Below are positions 20 to 43,127 of a DNA stretch of 43,127 nucleotides, piece by piece. The notes beneath the pieces are model-generated. The model was not told the origin of the DNA and searched no databases. It saw only the letters and a list, made by a program, of their open reading frames with translations. A program made the position numbers and the translations under genes. Origin of the DNA: a virus; IMG/VR virus record IMGVR_UViG_3300040801_002965, positions 1 through 43,127 of that record; one strand, written 5' to 3'. How positions within the stretch are numbered: the stretch's first letter is position 1; each line of letters starts with the position of its first letter.

Positions 20-95
<76 letters not shown>

Positions 96-131: not shown

Positions 132-207
132 GTCCCCATCGTCTAGAGGCCTAGGACACCGCCCTTTCACGGCGGCGACCGGGGTTCGAATCCCCGTGGG
201 GACGCCA
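132..207 (+). tRNA. tRNA-Glu (UUC), prophage integration target
   Basis: Acceptor GTCCCCA pairs with TGGGGAC, anticodon loop CTTTCAC gives TTC, and CCA is encoded at 205-207. The last 16 bases equal the sequence at 43011-43026, so the prophage entered the tRNA 3' end and restored an intact gene. The serine recombinase ends antisense inside this tRNA at 167, so its transcript would run antisense across the tRNA. Confidence 0.97.
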
Positions 208-1717
208 TATTTAGGCTGCGCTGGGGTTGGATCCGATATTGGATCTGACACTGGCCAGAGGCAGGGCAGAGCATGATGCGGCCGATGAGGTCGCGGAGTG
301 CGGGCTTGAGTTCCCTGGCGCTGGCGTGGCGTAGCTCTGACAGGCGGTCGTGTAGCAGCGACCGCACGTCATCTTCCGAAAGGGCCTGCACGGTGTTCCG
401 GCAGGCCCTTTCTTCTTCCATGCGATCGATTTCGGCCTGCAGGGCCGGGCGGCTGGTCTCGAGCTCGTCGACCTTGCGCAGCGCCGGCGCTGGGTCGTTC
501 AGTTCCTCGGCCAGGTCCATCATTCGGCTCACGCGTCGATCGAGCTCGGCCAGGCTCTTCCTTGCCGACTCCAGGGCGTCGTCGGTGCCGTCATAGTGGC
601 GTCGCGCCGCCTCGAGCAGATCCAGGACGAATCTCTGGCTGGCCAGGTCGTGGCTGAGCTGATCCATGACGGCCGTGTCGACGTCCTCGCAAGGGAAGTA
701 GCGACCAGGTCGGCCCTGGCTGGCCTTGAGTCGGTACCGTGGCGCCGGGTAGGTCTTGGCGCTGGTGCCGGTCCACATCTGGCCGTCCGGGCTGTAGAGC
801 AGGCCGGTCAGCAGGTACTGGCTGCCCATGGCCTTGGCCTCGCGGATCGCCTGGCCCACCTTGCTGGATTCCAGGGCCTCGATGATGCGGGTGGCCTCTT
901 TCTCGGTGATCAGGGCCTTGTGGGTGTCGCGCTGGATCAGCCACTCGTCGCGTGGCCGGCGCTTGCTGCCCTTCTTTCGCTCGCCGCCGTAGTGCTCGGC
1001 GTACATGCCGTAGACGGTGTGGCCGGCGTAGGTGAGGGCGTGCCAGTCCAGGCTGACCGCGCCGGACTGGCTGATCTTGAGCTTAGTCTCGCGCAGCGCC
1101 TGGCGGCGCGGCGTGCCGCCGGCGCGCAGTTTCAGGTACCTGGCGACGACGGGCGCCTGTTCTCCCGGCACCAGGACAGACTTGCTTACCTCCTGGCCTT
1201 CGCGGAGCTGGCCGGTGGCCACCTTCTGCAGCTTGTAGCCGATGGGCGCCTTGCCGCCGGCGCGGTAGCCGCGCTTGATGTTCTCGACCTGACCGGAGAT
1301 TCCCTTATCCCGGGACGTGACCGAGTGGATCTCGTCCATCGCCTCGAGCACGGACTCGAGCACCAGGCGGCTGATCGGATCCACGTCCGGCATCGTCTGG
1401 TAGACGACCTCGACGCCGCGGCGGGCCGCCTCGTGCCGGAACACCGGGCCCATCCATCGGCGGCGGCCGAGTCGGCTGGTGTCGAGAATCAGGATGGCTT
1501 CCCACTTTCGCAGGCTGGCGGGCTGGCGCAGGTCGTGCAGCAGGCGCTGGAAGCCGGGGCGGTCGATCGACGCGGCTGATTCGACCACGTCGGTGTATTC
1601 GGCGATGACTTTCAGGCCGCGATCAGCGGCGAGTTCCTGGAGCCTGGCGCGCTGAGCGTCGATCGACACGTCGTGGCGATCCTTGCTCGAGCGAAGATAC
1701 AGGGCAGCTTTGGCCAC
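167..1717 (-). CDS. Large serine recombinase (516 aa as integrated)
   Basis: Serine site-specific recombinase. N-terminal resolvase domain (about 1-140) has Y-x-R-x-S (R9, S11 the likely nucleophile) and the DTSRLGRR segment (79-86). A recombinase domain follows (about 150-300). Where relatives carry a Cys4 zinc ribbon (about 304-345) only one cysteine remains. A coiled coil covers about 380-440. The start is GTG behind GGAGGGACACC. The stop lies inside tRNA-Glu, so residues 504-509 are encoded by the att core and 510-516 by host tRNA DNA read antisense. In the excised circle the frame would exchange those 7 residues for 22 others and stop at 42941. It is last in the early operon, with no terminator seen before the tRNA. 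Confidence 0.93.
   Translation of the reverse strand: MAKAALYLRSSKDRHDVSIDAQRARLQELAADRGLKVIAEYTDVVESAASIDRPGFQRLLHDLRQPASLRKWEAILILDTSRLGRRRWMGPVFRHEAARRGVEVVYQTMPDVDPISRLVLESVLEAMDEIHSVTSRDKGISGQVENIKRGYRAGGKAPIGYKLQKVATGQLREGQEVSKSVLVPGEQAPVVARYLKLRAGGTPRRQALRETKLKISQSGAVSLDWHALTYAGHTVYGMYAEHYGGERKKGSKRRPRDEWLIQRDTHKALITEKEATRIIEALESSKVGQAIREAKAMGSQYLLTGLLYSPDGQMWTGTSAKTYPAPRYRLKASQGRPGRYFPCEDVDTAVMDQLSHDLASQRFVLDLLEAARRHYDGTDDALESARKSLAELDRRVSRMMDLAEELNDPAPALRKVDELETSRPALQAEIDRMEEERACRNTVQALSEDDVRSLLHDRLSELRHASARELKPALRDLIGRIMLCPASGQCQIQYRIQPQRSLNMASPRGFEPRSPP
192..207. repeat. attL: attL core, 16 bp
   Basis: CCCCGTGGGGACGCCA is identical to 43011-43026, the only other copy noticed. Both copies are preceded by TCGA, here with two extra bases (AT) before the core. 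It spans the T-arm and acceptor 3' strand of tRNA-Glu, the usual target of tRNA-integrating phages. Codons 504-509 of the serine recombinase lie on its minus strand. Confidence 0.93.
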
Positions 1718-3707: not shown

Positions 3708-6407
3708 TCACTCCACCGGCACCAACAACCCAAACCGCTCCAGCCGTTCGACTGAAAGCGCGGTCAGGTGGCCGTAGCGGGTGTGTTGGACTCGGCGTTC
3801 GACGCCGTCTTTTTCGATTACGCCGGCGCGCTCGAGCTGGCGTTTGAATGCCTGGCTGGAGCGGATCGGCAGGCTGTCCCATACGGTGCGCAGGCCGGGG
3901 CTGTGGCGGATGTGGTCGAGCATGTGGCTGGGCCGGATGATCAGGCACAGCTCGCCGTCGGTCAGGCAGTCGACCACGTAGGGGTGGTGGTACTGGCCGC
4001 GCGCCATTTCCGAGAGCACGGTTTCGATGATCTTCACCCAGGGCTGGCGGCTGGCGCCGGTCTCGCTGATGTGGTTGTTCATGGTGCTGAGCAGGTTGCG
4101 CATGAAATCGCCGGTGTCGACGTCCATGCCGGCGAATTCGGCCAGCAGGTACCAGGCCGCGCCCACGGCGGCGTAGTTGGTGATCATGCGGTCGGCGTTG
4201 GGGTCGTTCTCGCGCGCTGCGCAGCCGGCCTCGAGGAAGCCGTGCGACTGGCGGTAGAGGTCGCGCACCTGGTGCTTCGTGCAGGTGCTGAGGAACTTCA
4301 CCCAATCGTAGACCGGGAACAGTGGCGTCTCACCGCTGACCGGTTCGCCGCGGTTGGCCAACTCCAGGTGCACGCGCACGGTCTTCCCGGCGACGTTGTT
4401 CATGGCTTCGTCGTCCTCCCCGACGACCATTACCGGCGCGCACTTGATCATCGGCACTCGCGCCGCGCCCCAGTGGTCGACGGCGAACTTGTAGCAGTCC
4501 TGCAGTTTCGACTGGGCTTTCAGGCCCGCCACGTGGCCCTGGTTGGAGATTTCCTCCCAGACCACGGGGTGGAATGTGCCGCAGATCGATGCGAACTGGC
4601 GGAAGGGGCTTTCCATGGTGGCGCCGCCGAATACTTTCATCCCGATCGCCCTGGCCAGTGAGTGGGCGTTGGTCGTTTTGCCGGTGGACTTCTCGCCGGC
4701 GAGGATGAAGTGTGGCCAGAACTGCGTGAACGCCTTCAGGTGCGCCCCCAGGGCCCACACCAGGGCCATGAGCGTCTGGCAGTTGCCGTAGTTGCGAATG
4801 AAGGCGCTGATGACGCGCTGGGCGTCGGTCTGCGTGCCCCGGGGCATGGTGTGGGCGTAGTAGGGGCACTGGATCTCGGGCTCGCGCCAGTAGCAGTCCG
4901 GTCCTTCGTTGACGACCAGCTTGCCCTTTTTCCAGGCCAAACCATAATGGTTGACGGCGTGCACAGCGCCGATGTGCGCTGCGCGCTCCCAGATGTTGAT
5001 CAGGCGGCTGAACCGTGGCGGCCGGTAGACGGGCCCAAACTTTTCCCACATGCCCTTGTTGTGCACCTGGTCGTCAGTGAGCACCCGGCGCACCAGGTTG
5101 GCGCCGTGGCGCGGCGTCTGAACCACCACGGCAAACAGCGTCTCCGGGGCATAGTCCTGGTCGCCGGTCAGCGTCGACTCGGGTGATTGCACGGTCACCC
5201 GGCTCATGGCGGCCACGCGAAAACCGCACAGGTCGCGGAAGACCGGTTCCTGTTCCTTGTCCAGCTCCATCACGCTGGAGAAGTCCGGCGTGACGCGGTA
5301 GTTGCCGTATACCTCGAAATCCTTCGCCGGCAGCCACACCCGGGCGCGGCCGCGCTGCGCATCCAGGTTGGCCACCTGCCCAGGAATGGCCCAGCGCGAT
5401 GTGCGCTTCAGCATGGGCCGCAGCTTGTCGGGGCCCAGGTCCCGCAGCAGATCGTTGACGTCCTTGCCGGTCTCCCAGTCGTCCTGGTCGATCATCATCG
5501 CGCTGACGTTCACGGCCGTCAGCAGGTCATAGCAGCGCCAGGCGGCCTCCGTGCCCGGGCTTCGTCCGGCCATCGGGCCTTTCTCGATCGCCGGATCCGG
5601 ATCCATCGCGATCAGCACTTCCTTGCCGCGCAGAATCGACCAGTCGATCGAGTCCAGCGTCTGCGTGCCCCGGGTGGCCATCGCCACCGTGCCCTTCATG
5701 CCGCAGGCCTCCACGCTGATGGCGTTGATCGGCGATTCCACAAGCACCACGCGCCGGGCAGCCTTGAACGCCGCGCGGTCCATGATGAACGGCGCGCCGT
5801 CCTTGTCGCCCTGGGTCGTTGTCTTCACGCCGCCGTTGAGCTGCACGTCGCGGTAGCGAAGCTCCACGGCGGCCACATGGCCCGGGTTGAGCGTGCGCAC
5901 CACCACGCACAGCGCCGGCCCGCCGTGGCCGACCTCGCCCTGGGGCACCTTCGGGTTCTCGTAGTCGTTCCAGCCCACCACCTTCAGCTCGGCCGCGCGC
6001 CGGGCCGTGGCCTCCGGAATGCCGCGTTCGCTCACCAGGTACTCGATGGCCGGGTCCTGGTTCTGCAGCGACTTGTCGGCAATGAACTCGGCCAGGCTCT
6101 GCTCTTTGCGCTCCGGCCGGGGGCTGGATGCAACTGGCGCCGGGTAGCCATATTCCCTGCGGATCCACTCGATGGCCGGCTCCACCTCGTTGTAGCCGAA
6201 GTGGAACATCACCGCATCGATGCAGGTACCGGCCGCGCCGCTGCTGTGGTCCTTGAAGCGCTTGCCGTCGTTGAAGATCGAGATTGACGGGTTCTTGTCC
6301 GGATGGTGCGGGCTGCGATAGTTGCCGCGGCTGTGCGGCCGCTCCCAGCCCAGGCGCTGGGCCAGCTCGTGCAGGTCGATCGCTTCCTTGATCTGCTCGA
6401 GGTTCAT
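3708..6407 (-). CDS. Primase-helicase with TOPRIM and ATPase domains (899 aa)
   Basis: Likely primes and unwinds DNA at the phage replication fork. The N-terminus (29-70) has the layout of a CHC2-type primase zinc finger, but the ligand cysteines are replaced (YRSPHHPDKNPS; FKDHSSGAAG). The TOPRIM domain has glutamate VESP (223-226) and DPDP (269-272). A C-terminal ATPase carries Walker A GEKSTGKT (571-578) and Walker B VVWEE (615-619), in the style of virulence-associated E or superfamily 3 helicases. ATG at 6407 overlaps the upstream stop (ATGA). It is the only clear replication gene in the prophage; no DNA polymerase was seen. Confidence 0.88.
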   Translation of the reverse strand: MNLEQIKEAIDLHELAQRLGWERPHSRGNYRSPHHPDKNPSISIFNDGKRFKDHSSGAAGTCIDAVMFHFGYNEVEPAIEWIRREYGYPAPVASSPRPERKEQSLAEFIADKSLQNQDPAIEYLVSERGIPEATARRAAELKVVGWNDYENPKVPQGEVGHGGPALCVVVRTLNPGHVAAVELRYRDVQLNGGVKTTTQGDKDGAPFIMDRAAFKAARRVVLVESPINAISVEACGMKGTVAMATRGTQTLDSIDWSILRGKEVLIAMDPDPAIEKGPMAGRSPGTEAAWRCYDLLTAVNVSAMMIDQDDWETGKDVNDLLRDLGPDKLRPMLKRTSRWAIPGQVANLDAQRGRARVWLPAKDFEVYGNYRVTPDFSSVMELDKEQEPVFRDLCGFRVAAMSRVTVQSPESTLTGDQDYAPETLFAVVVQTPRHGANLVRRVLTDDQVHNKGMWEKFGPVYRPPRFSRLINIWERAAHIGAVHAVNHYGLAWKKGKLVVNEGPDCYWREPEIQCPYYAHTMPRGTQTDAQRVISAFIRNYGNCQTLMALVWALGAHLKAFTQFWPHFILAGEKSTGKTTNAHSLARAIGMKVFGGATMESPFRQFASICGTFHPVVWEEISNQGHVAGLKAQSKLQDCYKFAVDHWGAARVPMIKCAPVMVVGEDDEAMNNVAGKTVRVHLELANRGEPVSGETPLFPVYDWVKFLSTCTKHQVRDLYRQSHGFLEAGCAARENDPNADRMITNYAAVGAAWYLLAEFAGMDVDTGDFMRNLLSTMNNHISETGASRQPWVKIIETVLSEMARGQYHHPYVVDCLTDGELCLIIRPSHMLDHIRHSPGLRTVWDSLPIRSSQAFKRQLERAGVIEKDGVERRVQHTRYGHLTALSVERLERFGLLVPVE

Positions 6408-9308: not shown

Positions 9309-9643
9309 GACGACGCTCCCTCCGTCGCTGGAACGAAGCACGGCCGGCGTCCGCCATCGGGCTGGAGGATCTCCAGCTCGTGGATCTGGAACAGCCCGCC
9401 CAGCGTCCAGTCGCAGCCCTTGCCGTCGACGTAGCGCCCGATGCAGGAAAAGCCCCAGATGTGCGCCACATCCTCGAAGGATTCGCCCTGGCCGGCGTTG
9501 ATCAGGTCCTGAGCGCTCTGCAGGGTGCCGCATCGCGGGCAGCGGACCGTGCAGTCCTCGAGGCGTTCATGGCCCTGGGCTTTCAGCTCGTCGCGCAGTT
9601 GCTCGAGCGTGATCGTTCTGATGCTGTTGGTCGAGTCGGTCAC
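9305..9643 (-). CDS. Zinc-ribbon-like early protein (112 aa)
   Basis: Contains CPRCG followed by GFSCIGRYVDGKGCDWTLGG, four cysteines that could bind one zinc. This layout recalls small phage proteins of the VVA0879 type, an assignment from memory and not certain. Start GTG 9643 overlaps the recombinase stop (GTGA) and has GGGAGG upstream. Function unknown. Confidence 0.75.
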   Translation of the reverse strand: MTDSTNSIRTITLEQLRDELKAQGHERLEDCTVRCPRCGTLQSAQDLINAGQGESFEDVAHIWGFSCIGRYVDGKGCDWTLGGLFQIHELEILQPDGGRRPCFVPATEGASS

Positions 9644-10257
9644 GACGCCTCCCGGAGCGCTTGCTCGATGTCTTCGCGGTCGGGGAGGGTGTAGATGTCG
9701 GTGCTGCGGCCGTCCTTGTGGCCCAGGGCCAGGCGGGCGATCGCCTTGGGGTCCTGGGCCGTGGAGCGGCGCATGATCCGCTTGGCGAAGGTGTGGCGCC
9801 ACCAGTGCGGCGTGGCCTCGATCTGCAGGCCGGCGGCCCGGCACCAGTTCTTCATGCGGATCTGCAGCAAGCGGTCGGAAACGAAGCCGCCCTGGCGGTT
9901 GACCACCAGCGGGCTGTCCGGATACATCGGCCGGCCCAGCTCGCGGCGAATGCCCAGCAGCGACTGGATGGCGTAGCGCGCCGGGTTGGTCAGGTAAACC
10001 TCGTAGCCGTGGCCGCCCTTGGCCTTCTCGCCGTCGATGGTCATATAGCCGCTGGCCAAGCTCTCGCGCGCATCGCGCACGGTCATGCGGATCAGCGCGC
10101 CGACGCGGATACCGGTGTGCCGAAGCACGCGCATCCAGGCCAGGTCACGCCGCGCCCAGGGGCAGCGCAGGCGCTTCAAGTGGGCGAACAACTTCTTTTC
10201 CTCGCTCTCGGTCATGTAGCGGTCAAACACCTTCCGGTGCGTGATTCGGTTTCGCAT
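9640..10257 (-). CDS. Catalytic-domain-only tyrosine recombinase (205 aa)
   Basis: All active-site residues of the tyrosine recombinase family are present: R51 (HTGIRVG), K80, H151-x-x-R154 (HWWRH), H180 (LGH) and nucleophile Y189 (DIYT). It lacks the N-terminal core-binding domain of integrases, and its length matches FimB/FimE-type invertases and small resolvases. It lies mid early operon, far from the att sites, so it is unlikely to be the main integrase. Resolution of multimers or a DNA inversion are possible, but no paired inverted sites were recognised. ATG follows GGAGGGACACC. Confidence 0.9.
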   Translation of the reverse strand: MRNRITHRKVFDRYMTESEEKKLFAHLKRLRCPWARRDLAWMRVLRHTGIRVGALIRMTVRDARESLASGYMTIDGEKAKGGHGYEVYLTNPARYAIQSLLGIRRELGRPMYPDSPLVVNRQGGFVSDRLLQIRMKNWCRAAGLQIEATPHWWRHTFAKRIMRRSTAQDPKAIARLALGHKDGRSTDIYTLPDREDIEQALREAS

Positions 10258-13594: not shown

Positions 13595-14203
13595 ATGATT
13601 AGATTTATGATTTTGGGGTTGGTGTTGGCGGTTTCGACGGTCTCGCATGCGGATGCTCAGCGGGATGTGGCTCGCTGCGCGGCTATTTCCGGAGATGCTC
13701 AACGGCTTACCTGCTACGACGAATTGGCCGAATCCATGGGGGTCGCGGAACCCGCTTCGTCGGCGAGTGAGGTTGGGCGATGGAATGTGGAAGTCGAGGT
13801 ATCTCCCATCGACGACAGCAGGAATGTGTTCCTGACAGTTGAGTCTGAGAGCGCCATCAGGAACTCCATCGGTCGTCCGGTCAAGCCGGTACTCTTCATT
13901 CGCTGCAAAGAGAACACCACCGAGGTGTTCATAGCCTGGGGCGTCTACTTGGGGCTGGATTCAACAAGGGTTCTGGAAAGACTCGATAAGCAAGACGCGA
14001 CCACCACCGCCTGGAACAACTCCACCGACAACAAGGCGGTATTTCGTAGGGGAAACAAGATCGACTACGTGAAGACCCTAATGGAACATGACAAGGTGCT
14101 CTATCAGGTCACTCCTTACAACGAAAGCCCGGTAATGGCCAGCTTTGATCTACGCGGCCTCAGCGAAGCCGTTGAGCCGCTTCGAGACTCTTGCGGCTGG
14201 TAG
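13595..14203 (+). CDS. VasI-like exported protein (202 aa)
   Basis: Has a signal peptide (about 1-21), then RDVARCAAISGD...LTCYDELA and a domain with LFIRCKENTTEVFIAWGVYL, RLDKQDATTTAWNNSTDN and PYNESPVMASFDLRGL ending in CGW. This arrangement matches the VasI (VC_A0118-type) family found in type VI secretion clusters, recognised from its motifs. No other type VI gene is present here. AGGAGG precedes ATG. Together with the adjacent lipoprotein it looks like a lysogenic-conversion unit acting in the periplasm. Confidence 0.78.
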   Translation: MIRFMILGLVLAVSTVSHADAQRDVARCAAISGDAQRLTCYDELAESMGVAEPASSASEVGRWNVEVEVSPIDDSRNVFLTVESESAIRNSIGRPVKPVLFIRCKENTTEVFIAWGVYLGLDSTRVLERLDKQDATTTAWNNSTDNKAVFRRGNKIDYVKTLMEHDKVLYQVTPYNESPVMASFDLRGLSEAVEPLRDSCGW

Positions 14204-26947: not shown

Positions 26948-27022
26948 TGGTAGCGGGGGCCGGACTCGAACCGGCGACCTGGTGGTTATGAGCCACCCGA
27001 GCTGCCACTGCTCTACCCCGCA
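26948..27022 (-). tRNA. Phage-encoded tRNA-Met (CAU), initiator-like
   Basis: A 75-base cloverleaf: acceptor TGCGGGG with CCCCGCT, D-stem GAGC/GCTC, anticodon stem GGTGG/CCACC around CTCATAA (anticodon CAT), T-arm GCCGG/CCGGC, and encoded CCA. Position 1 faces 72 as U-U, unpaired, and the 11-24 pair is A-U; both are hallmarks of bacterial initiator tRNA. Only two of the three G-C pairs at the loop end of the anticodon stem are kept (29-41 is U-A). It lies in the late operon on the sense strand, six bases below the lipoprotein stop. Confidence 0.93.
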
Positions 27023-41501: not shown

Positions 41502-42551
41502 CTAAGCACCATCGGGGGACCGAGAACGCGTCTGGATCTTGTTTGCGAGTAGCCGGGCGTCGCGCACAACGCCGGCGTGCATCTTGCTCATGGGGTTGCC
41601 CTTGTCGACGGACTTCACCAGGCGGCGTATGGCCACGTGGGTGTAGATCTCGGTGCTCTTCGGGTCGGAGTGACCCATCAGCGTCTGGCGCTGCAGGATA
41701 TCGATCTCTTCCTCGGCCAGCTCGGTGGCGTAGAGGTGGCGAAGAGCATGCGGGTGGCACTGGTCGGCCGGCAGCTTGGCGCGCTCGCCATAGCGCTGGA
41801 TCATGTCGTGCACTGTCCTGGTCGCGATGCGGCGTGCCTCGCCGTAGTAGTCGGCCGGGTCGATCGTCCTGTTGTTGGTCGAGACCCACAGCACGTCATC
41901 ACCATCGGGCAGCGAGGTGTCGATCTCAAGCAGCTCAGGGCTGGCCAGGTATGCGCGGATCAGCACGGCCGTCTCGATCGGCACCGGGATCACGCGCTCG
42001 TGGTCCCCTTTCTCGCGCACGCTGATCACCATTCGCTCGGCCCCGTCGATCACCATCCAGGTCAGGTGGCCACGGTTCATGCGGACCAGGCCGGACACGC
42101 GCAGGCCGCAGCCGATCAGCGTGGAGAGCAGGGCGGCATCGCGCAGGCCGATGAAGGTGTTGATGTCGGGCTGCATCAGCAGCTTCTCGGCGGTCGCCAG
42201 GTGTGCGGGCTTGGGGAGACGCCGGCCGGTGGACGGATAGAGCAGGTCGACAGCGGGCGAGGTCGTGATGACGCCTCGGCGCCGGGCCCAGGAGTAGAAG
42301 CCACGCAGTGCCGCGACCAGTGGCCGCCTGCTGCGAGCAGTCATGCCCAGCTCGCGAGCGACCAGGCCGACAAAGACCTCGAGGTCCTCCAGGGAAAGCG
42401 CCCAGGGATCCAGCTTGCTGGCCTTGGCGTAGGCCTCGAGCTGGTGCAGGTGACGCCGGTATTTGTCAGCGGTGAGGGGAGAGCGGCCCTTGACCGTCTG
42501 GAGCCAGACCGCCCAGTCGTCGACGACGGAAAGAAAAGGGGGCAGGGGCAA
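41502..42551 (-). CDS. XerC/D-like tyrosine integrase (349 aa)
   Basis: Full-length tyrosine recombinase: N-terminal SAM-like core-binding domain (FLSVVDDWAVWLQTVKGRSP to about 100), then catalytic residues R151 (GCGLRVSG), K181, H268-x-x-R271, H294 (LMGH) and nucleophile Y303 (EIYTHV). It has no lambda-type arm-binding domain. The only start available is TTG 42551 with a poor ribosome site, suggesting low expression. It lies 459 bp from attR, reading away from it. Integration into a tRNA 3' end with a 16-bp core is typical of this class, so it is a strong candidate for the main integrase. Confidence 0.92.
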   Translation of the reverse strand: MPLPPFLSVVDDWAVWLQTVKGRSPLTADKYRRHLHQLEAYAKASKLDPWALSLEDLEVFVGLVARELGMTARSRRPLVAALRGFYSWARRRGVITTSPAVDLLYPSTGRRLPKPAHLATAEKLLMQPDINTFIGLRDAALLSTLIGCGLRVSGLVRMNRGHLTWMVIDGAERMVISVREKGDHERVIPVPIETAVLIRAYLASPELLEIDTSLPDGDDVLWVSTNNRTIDPADYYGEARRIATRTVHDMIQRYGERAKLPADQCHPHALRHLYATELAEEEIDILQRQTLMGHSDPKSTEIYTHVAIRRLVKSVDKGNPMSKMHAGVVRDARLLANKIQTRSRSPDGA

Positions 42552-42562
42552 TATTTCTCGTG

Positions 42563-42851
42563 TTCCGTGGGCGCAAGGTCAGTATGGGGCTAAGTCACTG
42601 ATTTGGCAACATTCATCCGCCCACGGAAACACACGAAAACCCACGATTCCCGAAAATTCCCGTGGTCGCATTTCTACAACACCAATAAAGGCCGTGTGCA
42701 ATATTGGGTAAATTGTGTGCGGTATTGCCATTCCCGTGTGCGTTTTGACGTTTCCCGTGTGTGTCCTTCTTCTTCTTCTTCTTCTAAAAAGTTAGAAGAT
42801 ACATATACATAAGAGGTTTGTGGCGCATATGAGACCACGAAACCACGGGAA
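42563..42851. repeat. Iterated TTCCCGTG motifs
   Basis: Direct copies of TTCCCGTG at 42657, 42731 and 42752, an inverted copy CACGGGAA at 42844-42851, and shorter TTCCGTG (42563) and CACGGAA (42622). Likely protein-binding sites for a recombinase, replication initiator or regulator. Confidence 0.6.
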
Positions 42852-42926
42852 TTTAGAGATTGCCTGTGGATTGAATATTTGAGGGAGTGACGCAGTTCTC
42901 GGTTTTCCTTTTCAGGGCCGAGATCT

Positions 42927-42957
42927 ACTTCCAGGAAGTGCTACCGGCGAGCGCCGG
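42927..42957. repeat. Paired palindromes near attR
   Basis: ACTTCC-a-GGAAGT (42927-42939) and CCGGCG-ag-CGCCGG (42944-42957) stand 54-84 bp from the att core. They could bind recombinase or a directionality factor, or fold in the serine recombinase mRNA of the circle. Confidence 0.45.
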
Positions 42958-43010
42958 CGATCTTGATCAGGCGGGTGGTCGACGAGGCTTCGAGCGTCCA
43001 TTGTGCTCGA

Positions 43011-43026
43011 CCCCGTGGGGACGCCA
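43011..43026. repeat. attR: attR core, 16 bp
   Basis: Identical to 192-207 (CCCCGTGGGGACGCCA) and preceded by TCGA as the left copy is, without the two extra bases. Host DNA resumes right after it. Confidence 0.93.
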
Positions 43027-43033
43027 ACACGAG

Positions 43034-43067
43034 AAAGGCCCGCCTTCGAGCGGGCCTTTTTCTTTTT
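43034..43067 (+). terminator. Host tRNA operon terminator displaced by the prophage
   Basis: Perfect 10-bp stem AAAGGCCCGC/GCGGGCCTTT with loop CTTCGA, then TTTTCTTTTTC. In the empty chromosome it would stand 7 bases after the tRNA-Glu CCA end; the prophage now separates it from its operon by 42.8 kb. Confidence 0.9.
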
Positions 43068-43127
43068 CGGCCGCCCTGTCCTGCACGGCGTCCCGTGGCT
43101 CCGGCAATGGAAACGGCGCCCCCGCCG

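Follow-up and report, generated by a model that had tools for sequence, protein, structure and literature searches.

Does a phage integrase whose gene runs through its own attachment core remain the same protein after integration and, if not, what does the exchanged end do? The question is raised by the window, meaning here the whole stretch of 43,127 nt that was analysed, in which the frame of a large serine integrase crosses an att core into a host tRNA-Glu gene.

Prophage ends, host and attachment core

The 16-bp core, CCCCGTGGGGACGCCA, has exactly two copies in the window, at 192–207 and 43011–43026 on the plus strand, and is the longest direct repeat shared between both window ends. The left copy is shared by the integrase gene and the 3′ terminus of a host tRNA-Glu(UUC) gene (132–207, plus strand), the attB target, which is intact in the prophage; the right copy is attR. 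A tRNA-Ala(GGC) gene (20–95, plus strand) adjoins the target, and both tRNA genes were called by ARAGORN. Positions 1–207 are 99 % identical to the tRNA-Ala/tRNA-Glu locus of Wenzhouxiangella sediminis. Likewise, the sequence downstream of the right core (ACACGAGAAAGGCCCG..., 43027–43127, plus strand), which carries a terminator-like hairpin, matches the DNA 3′ of the same tRNA in W. sediminis, and the only copy in the genome collection of a 22-mer that covers the right core and runs into the adjoining host DNA is from that species. These matches identify the prophage host as Wenzhouxiangella or a near relative of it. Since the outer flanks match W. sediminis they are host DNA, and thus the join used to reconstruct the excised circle is the expected one.

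In W. sediminis itself the tRNA-Glu gene is occupied by a different element of ~10 kb (L017, G006:C42 60565–70824), which has its own integrase-like gene and a 46-bp tRNA fragment 10 kb away. Judged from these two occupants, tRNA-Glu is an integration hotspot shared by the window prophage and the W. sediminis element. The sequence pattern of the window attL had no match in other viral contigs. Elsewhere in the prophage, a gene at 13595–14203 matches VasI (PF11319, a type VI secretion accessory protein) and phrog_1848, and a tRNA-Met(CAT) gene is carried at 26948–27022 on the minus strand. A primase scan of the window gave no match.

Two forms of the integrase

In the prophage the integrase gene is read on the minus strand from a GTG at 1717 to a stop at 167, giving an integrated (attL) form of 516 aa with the C-terminus MASPRGFEPRSPP. 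Its last codons are supplied by antisense tRNA-Glu (167–191, minus strand), which encodes FEPRSPP and the stop, as it does in 15 relatives. In the reconstructed circle, where the left core continues into the sequence below 43011, the same frame encodes 531 aa. The phage DNA at 42941–43010 (minus strand) then contributes a 22-residue tail and a TAG stop at 42943–42941, and the protein ends MASPRG-RAQWTLEASSTTRLIKIAGARR, i.e. ...MASPRGRAQWTLEASSTTRLIKIAGARR. Base 208, the A of the ATG through which the frame enters the core, lies just beyond the core on the phage side and is therefore retained in both forms. A preliminary description of this DNA had the frame crossing the core, with 531 residues before integration and 516 after it; when both frames were re-read, all of its coordinates held.

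A family with a rewritten C-terminus

Scans of viral and genome contigs with the single protein returned no relatives, and none were found in the host's taxonomic family. A profile built from three sequences found 54 viral loci. About 50 related large serine integrases, 36–51 % identical, carry the tRNA-Glu core, and the integrase bodies have a median pairwise identity of 44 %. The core stands in the same integrase frame in 46 of the 47 forward-oriented loci that have it; the sole exception is L067 (~7468), in which the core is read in another frame (RWRPHGDSS...). A subgroup of opposite orientation (L035, L039, L043, L045 and L060) was excluded from all counts. In these five the core is reversed within the integrase gene, most read NPRGDAT or similar, and the arms are symmetric; a tRNA-Asp gene lies just downstream in L035, L043 and L045.

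Sixteen loci besides the window are integrated, 14 of them viral and two in bacterial genomes. Here the frame enters antisense tRNA-Glu and ends like ASPRGFEPLLPP*, the stop being a TGA opposite the anticodon loop. The two bacterial relatives (48 and 41 % identical) both end MASPRGFEPLLPP in tRNA-Glu, and the former adjoins conjugation genes and is ICE-like, as judged from its translated neighbours. Free (attP) forms, in which phage DNA follows the core, number 31: 28 read directly, the window, and two reconstructed from prophages of which both ends are present (L038 and L069), whose tails fall in the same length range as the others. L076, whose free tail contains TTCGAA, is counted among them. 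In one contig (L028, G063:C31) there are two attR-like cores, at 3712 and 5368, 1.66 kb apart and each preceded by a similar terminator-like hairpin. Both would give 22-residue free tails that stop at the same codon, their sequences having diverged.

The claim that integration rewrites the integrase C-terminus is thus supported and applies family-wide, across the 16 integrated and 31 free forms. The preliminary description had also proposed that related phages be checked for a conserved free form, and a tail of 20–30 residues is present in 31/31 (window included). On these comparisons, the rewriting is not an accident of one prophage.

Other families of serine integrases (~20–33 % identical) also appear, by eye, to end in antisense tRNA-like or tmRNA-like sequence; cases are found at L102 2220–2258, L105 3000–3130 and L110 2640–2695 (Faecalibacterium phage FP_Toutatis, Moorella phage MCACPph1 and a Paracoccus plasmid). 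ARAGORN called no complete gene at these three ends. Judging from such endings, tail rewriting may be wider than the tRNA-Glu family.

Enzyme class and choice of integrase

The window protein is filed as a serine integrase because of its catalytic domain, fold and att site. It has an N-terminal resolvase catalytic domain (PF00239, E 2.5e-17) and matches phrog_95 (integrase), and the integrase profile matches TP901-1 and phiC31 chains. The Recombinase domain PF07508 scored 17.8 bits in the window, under the cut-off of 21.1, and was found in 28/30 family members at E<=0.01. The model of the integrated form (pLDDT 84.9, pTM 0.48) contains a long helical, coiled-coil-like segment, and its top PDB matches are full serine integrase complexes, phiC31-type and others (E 1e-16), with whole-chain TM-scores of only ~0.2–0.4. 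Among 30 aligned members, no Cys occupies an invariant or near-invariant column where zinc-ribbon cysteines were sought; a variant zinc domain is likely in this family. Around the dinucleotide in CCCC-NN-GGGG the family attP shows the symmetry expected for a serine integrase, its arms being 77–100 % complementary at 18–22 bp from the centre.

Two tyrosine recombinases that the preliminary description had passed over are also encoded on the minus strand: a short one of 205 aa (9640–10257, PF00589) and a complete one of 349 aa (41502–42551, PF00589 and PF02899). The latter is a rival candidate integrase, given its tyrosine-recombinase domains and its position 460 bp from attR. Tyrosine enzymes are the usual integrases at tRNA genes (PMC4383910), and the arms of the window attP are without symmetry (5/22 matches vs 5.4 in shuffles, i.e. 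chance level). It is nevertheless very unlikely that this enzyme integrates the prophage at tRNA-Glu and that the serine enzyme has another role. In 39/47 viral records with the serine family, some of which are fragments, no tyrosine recombinase scored over the threshold, and none is evident within 16.5 kb in the ICE-like element that carries the same serine family and ends in tRNA-Glu. The family attP, moreover, has serine-type symmetry, and the two nearest relatives of the tyrosine recombinase adjoin unrelated serine integrases. The tyrosine recombinase as true integrase is therefore disfavoured, and by these gene contents and sites the serine enzyme is the better candidate.

The two nearest viral relatives of the 349-aa recombinase (L002 3962–4999 and L003 3863–4984, 43–45 % identical) lie directly upstream of those serine integrases, which end KRAA and AIAA. 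Tyrosine recombinases of similar size are present in G446, G456 and G470. In the window, the intergenic region at 42540–42880, which precedes the tyrosine recombinase, has repeated CCCGTG/CACGGG-type words and a CTT run, and may be an origin or a site for protein binding.

Selection on the free tail

All free tails are 20–30 residues long in the integrase frame, vs 2–82 in the other two frames. A terminal Ala is found in 24/31 free tails vs 55/290 among the remaining ORFs of these loci (P=8e-11), and in 0/16 integrated forms. Ala-Ala endings occur in 14/31 vs 14/290 (P=5e-9), and endings like the C-motifs of ClpX in 20/31 vs 14/290 (P=2e-15), this last pattern having been drawn up with the tails already in view. 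As samples, related integrases are only partly independent; of the 25 clusters that they form at 60 % identity, 18 held only Ala-ending tails. The final Ala is encoded by GCG (8), GCT (6), GCA (5) and GCC (5) and is followed by all three stops, and this variety places the constraint on the amino acid. Pooled over three close pairs, the distal tail differs by 20 synonymous and 16 nonsynonymous changes (dN/dS 0.31, P=4e-4). Identity in L050/L066 is 74 % within the tail and 13 % past the stop; L068/L070 has no such fall at the stop (88 to 83 %). By these measures, purifying selection acts on the free tail at the protein level.

Conservation of attP DNA alone was considered for the distal tail and rejected: symmetry fades beyond ~22 bp, and the Ala end lies ~50–80 bp from the centre with varied codons. 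The proximal tail, which overlaps an attP arm, is conserved partly at the DNA level. A P-x-L-R pattern is conserved in the free tails. As a general habit of serine integrases, the Ala-Ala ending was found in 0/11 distant members; an Ala ending is not unique to the tRNA-Glu family, since the serine integrases beside the relatives of the window tyrosine recombinase end KRAA and AIAA.

The free tail of the window ends ...IAGARR and, unlike most relatives, is without terminal Ala, as are 7/31 tails in all. Its length is usual, and by eye AQW-TL can be aligned with VEWPTL of L042, one codon shorter. Given the ending without Ala and the asymmetric attP arms, the window prophage may be an unusual member or one whose right end has decayed, its tail then being a variant or a product of that decay. 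The conclusions below about a degradation signal rest on the relatives, not on the window prophage.

Function of the two forms

The preliminary description had suggested that a rewritten recombinase could switch direction or stability. A difference in function between the two forms is supported indirectly by the selection on the tail and by the ClpX-type ending that most free tails lose on integration, and stability seems a better fit to the sequence data than direction. ClpX C-motif 1 has the endings LAA, NAA, PAA or EAA, and C-motif 2 is RRKKAI-, RAKKVA- or HARKVA-like (PMC9775585); free tails with comparable endings include ...RNRKAA, ...LKLAA, ...GKVA and ...RRRVA. The tail that the integrase loses on integration is conserved and probably linked to degradation. 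The preferred reading, to which a probability of about 0.5 is given, is that the free tail acts mainly as a C-terminal ClpXP-type degradation signal placed after a beta strand, and that integration removes both.

In this proposal the protein is the integrase of a temperate phage and belongs to the large serine family that targets the 3′ end of tRNA-Glu. attP lies in the last part of its gene, which in the free circle reads on through the core into a tail of 20–30 residues. The putative signal would consist of basic or hydrophobic residues followed by Ala-Ala or Val-Ala, and the strand before it would pack on the C-terminal sheet of the integrase. A short-lived integrase in the free phage would limit lysogeny and stop re-integration after excision. 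After integration, the frame passes into antisense tRNA-Glu and stops at the anticodon loop; the enzyme made in the prophage would then lack the tail and last longer, and would be available for excision together with its directionality factor. That a widespread family of tRNA-Glu serine integrases possesses such a built-in stability latch, a degradation tail in the free phage shed by the enzyme's own recombination, is put forward tentatively, at a little short of an even chance.

Against the degradation reading, the tail is mostly beta strand in the one free form modelled (L055), so that its role may be structural rather than one of stability. Residues 495–506 of that model form a strand, apparently against 474–486, and the last residues are loose. 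A strand that completes the C-terminal sheet could favour attP x attB recombination, and its loss could weaken the enzyme or shift it to excision; the conserved P-x-L-R pattern would suit this, as would the altered activity described for the Mx8 integrase. The confidence of the model at the strand is only 63–76, however, the most conserved feature, the terminal Ala, falls past the strand, and the P-x-L-R part overlaps an attP arm and is partly under DNA constraint. A mainly structural or regulatory tail is the chief rival reading, possible but doubtful. It is improbable that the overlap merely results from fitting attP into the last part of the gene, with both tails functionally neutral. Compatible with neutrality are a body that folds in the absence of the tail, disorder from residue 500 onward in the model of the integrated window form, and the atypical free tail of the window itself; yet tail length is fixed in one frame only, the ending is Ala, dN/dS is 0.31 and identity falls at the stop codon.

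Should the tail prove to be a degradation signal, a single crossover would insert the phage and at the same time convert a short-lived integrase into a long-lived one, which would explain simply how lysogeny is limited while the capacity for excision is kept. Serine integrases are major genome-engineering tools. Copies annotated in prophages would be tail-less, so that database entries may show a C-terminus other than the one at work during integration. The 31 natural free tails, vs 16 integrated ones, provide material for testing.

Comparison with known systems

Phage Mx8 of Myxococcus xanthus has attP in the coding sequence of its integrase, and integration creates a new 3′ end and altered activity (PMC6070905, PMC4701971). 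It is like the tRNA-Glu family in having attP inside int and two C-termini; it works alike and is not kin. Mx8 differs in that its enzyme is a tyrosine recombinase, 112 residues are replaced by 13, and no Ala-terminal tail is described in the accounts consulted. In a survey of streptococcal ICEs, the rumA serine integrases, which also have the att site within the gene, change the length and sequence of their C-terminus on integration (PMC4701971). There, however, integration takes place in a protein-coding gene and exchanges its 3′ part, and the accessible part of the survey reports no selection on a free tail and no degradation motif.

Serine recombinases at tRNA genes are called rare, with phiRSM1 at tRNA-Ser, Mycobacterium AICEs at tRNA-Leu and Paracoccus Pami6 at tRNA-Met (PMC3218068, PMC6536676). 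These too are serine enzymes at tRNA genes; the tRNAs are others, and rewriting of the integrase tail is not reported in the portions of those papers at hand. Elsewhere, too, tRNA targets of such enzymes are described as rare or unknown. With the present family, tRNA-Glu joins the short list of tRNA genes reported as serine integrase targets.

In integration-dependent immunity, an ssrA-like tag is removed from the repressor by integration (PMC9262239). As in the tRNA-Glu family, a gene of the mycobacteriophages concerned (BPs and relatives) spans attP at a tRNA site. In BPs-type phages it is the repressor that is switched, the integrase keeps its tag, and that integrase is a tyrosine enzyme. 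The window has attP in the integrase gene, unlike the repressor-gene attP of those phages, and an ending of the viral form that may act as an ssrA-like tag is present in sequence in 20/31 free tails, not in that of the window. The principle of a self-rewritten protein of this kind is already known from Mx8, the rumA ICEs and the ssrA-tagged repressors; new, as far as the literature surveyed goes, are the tRNA-Glu family, its selected free tail and the ClpX-like Ala ending that is lost on integration.
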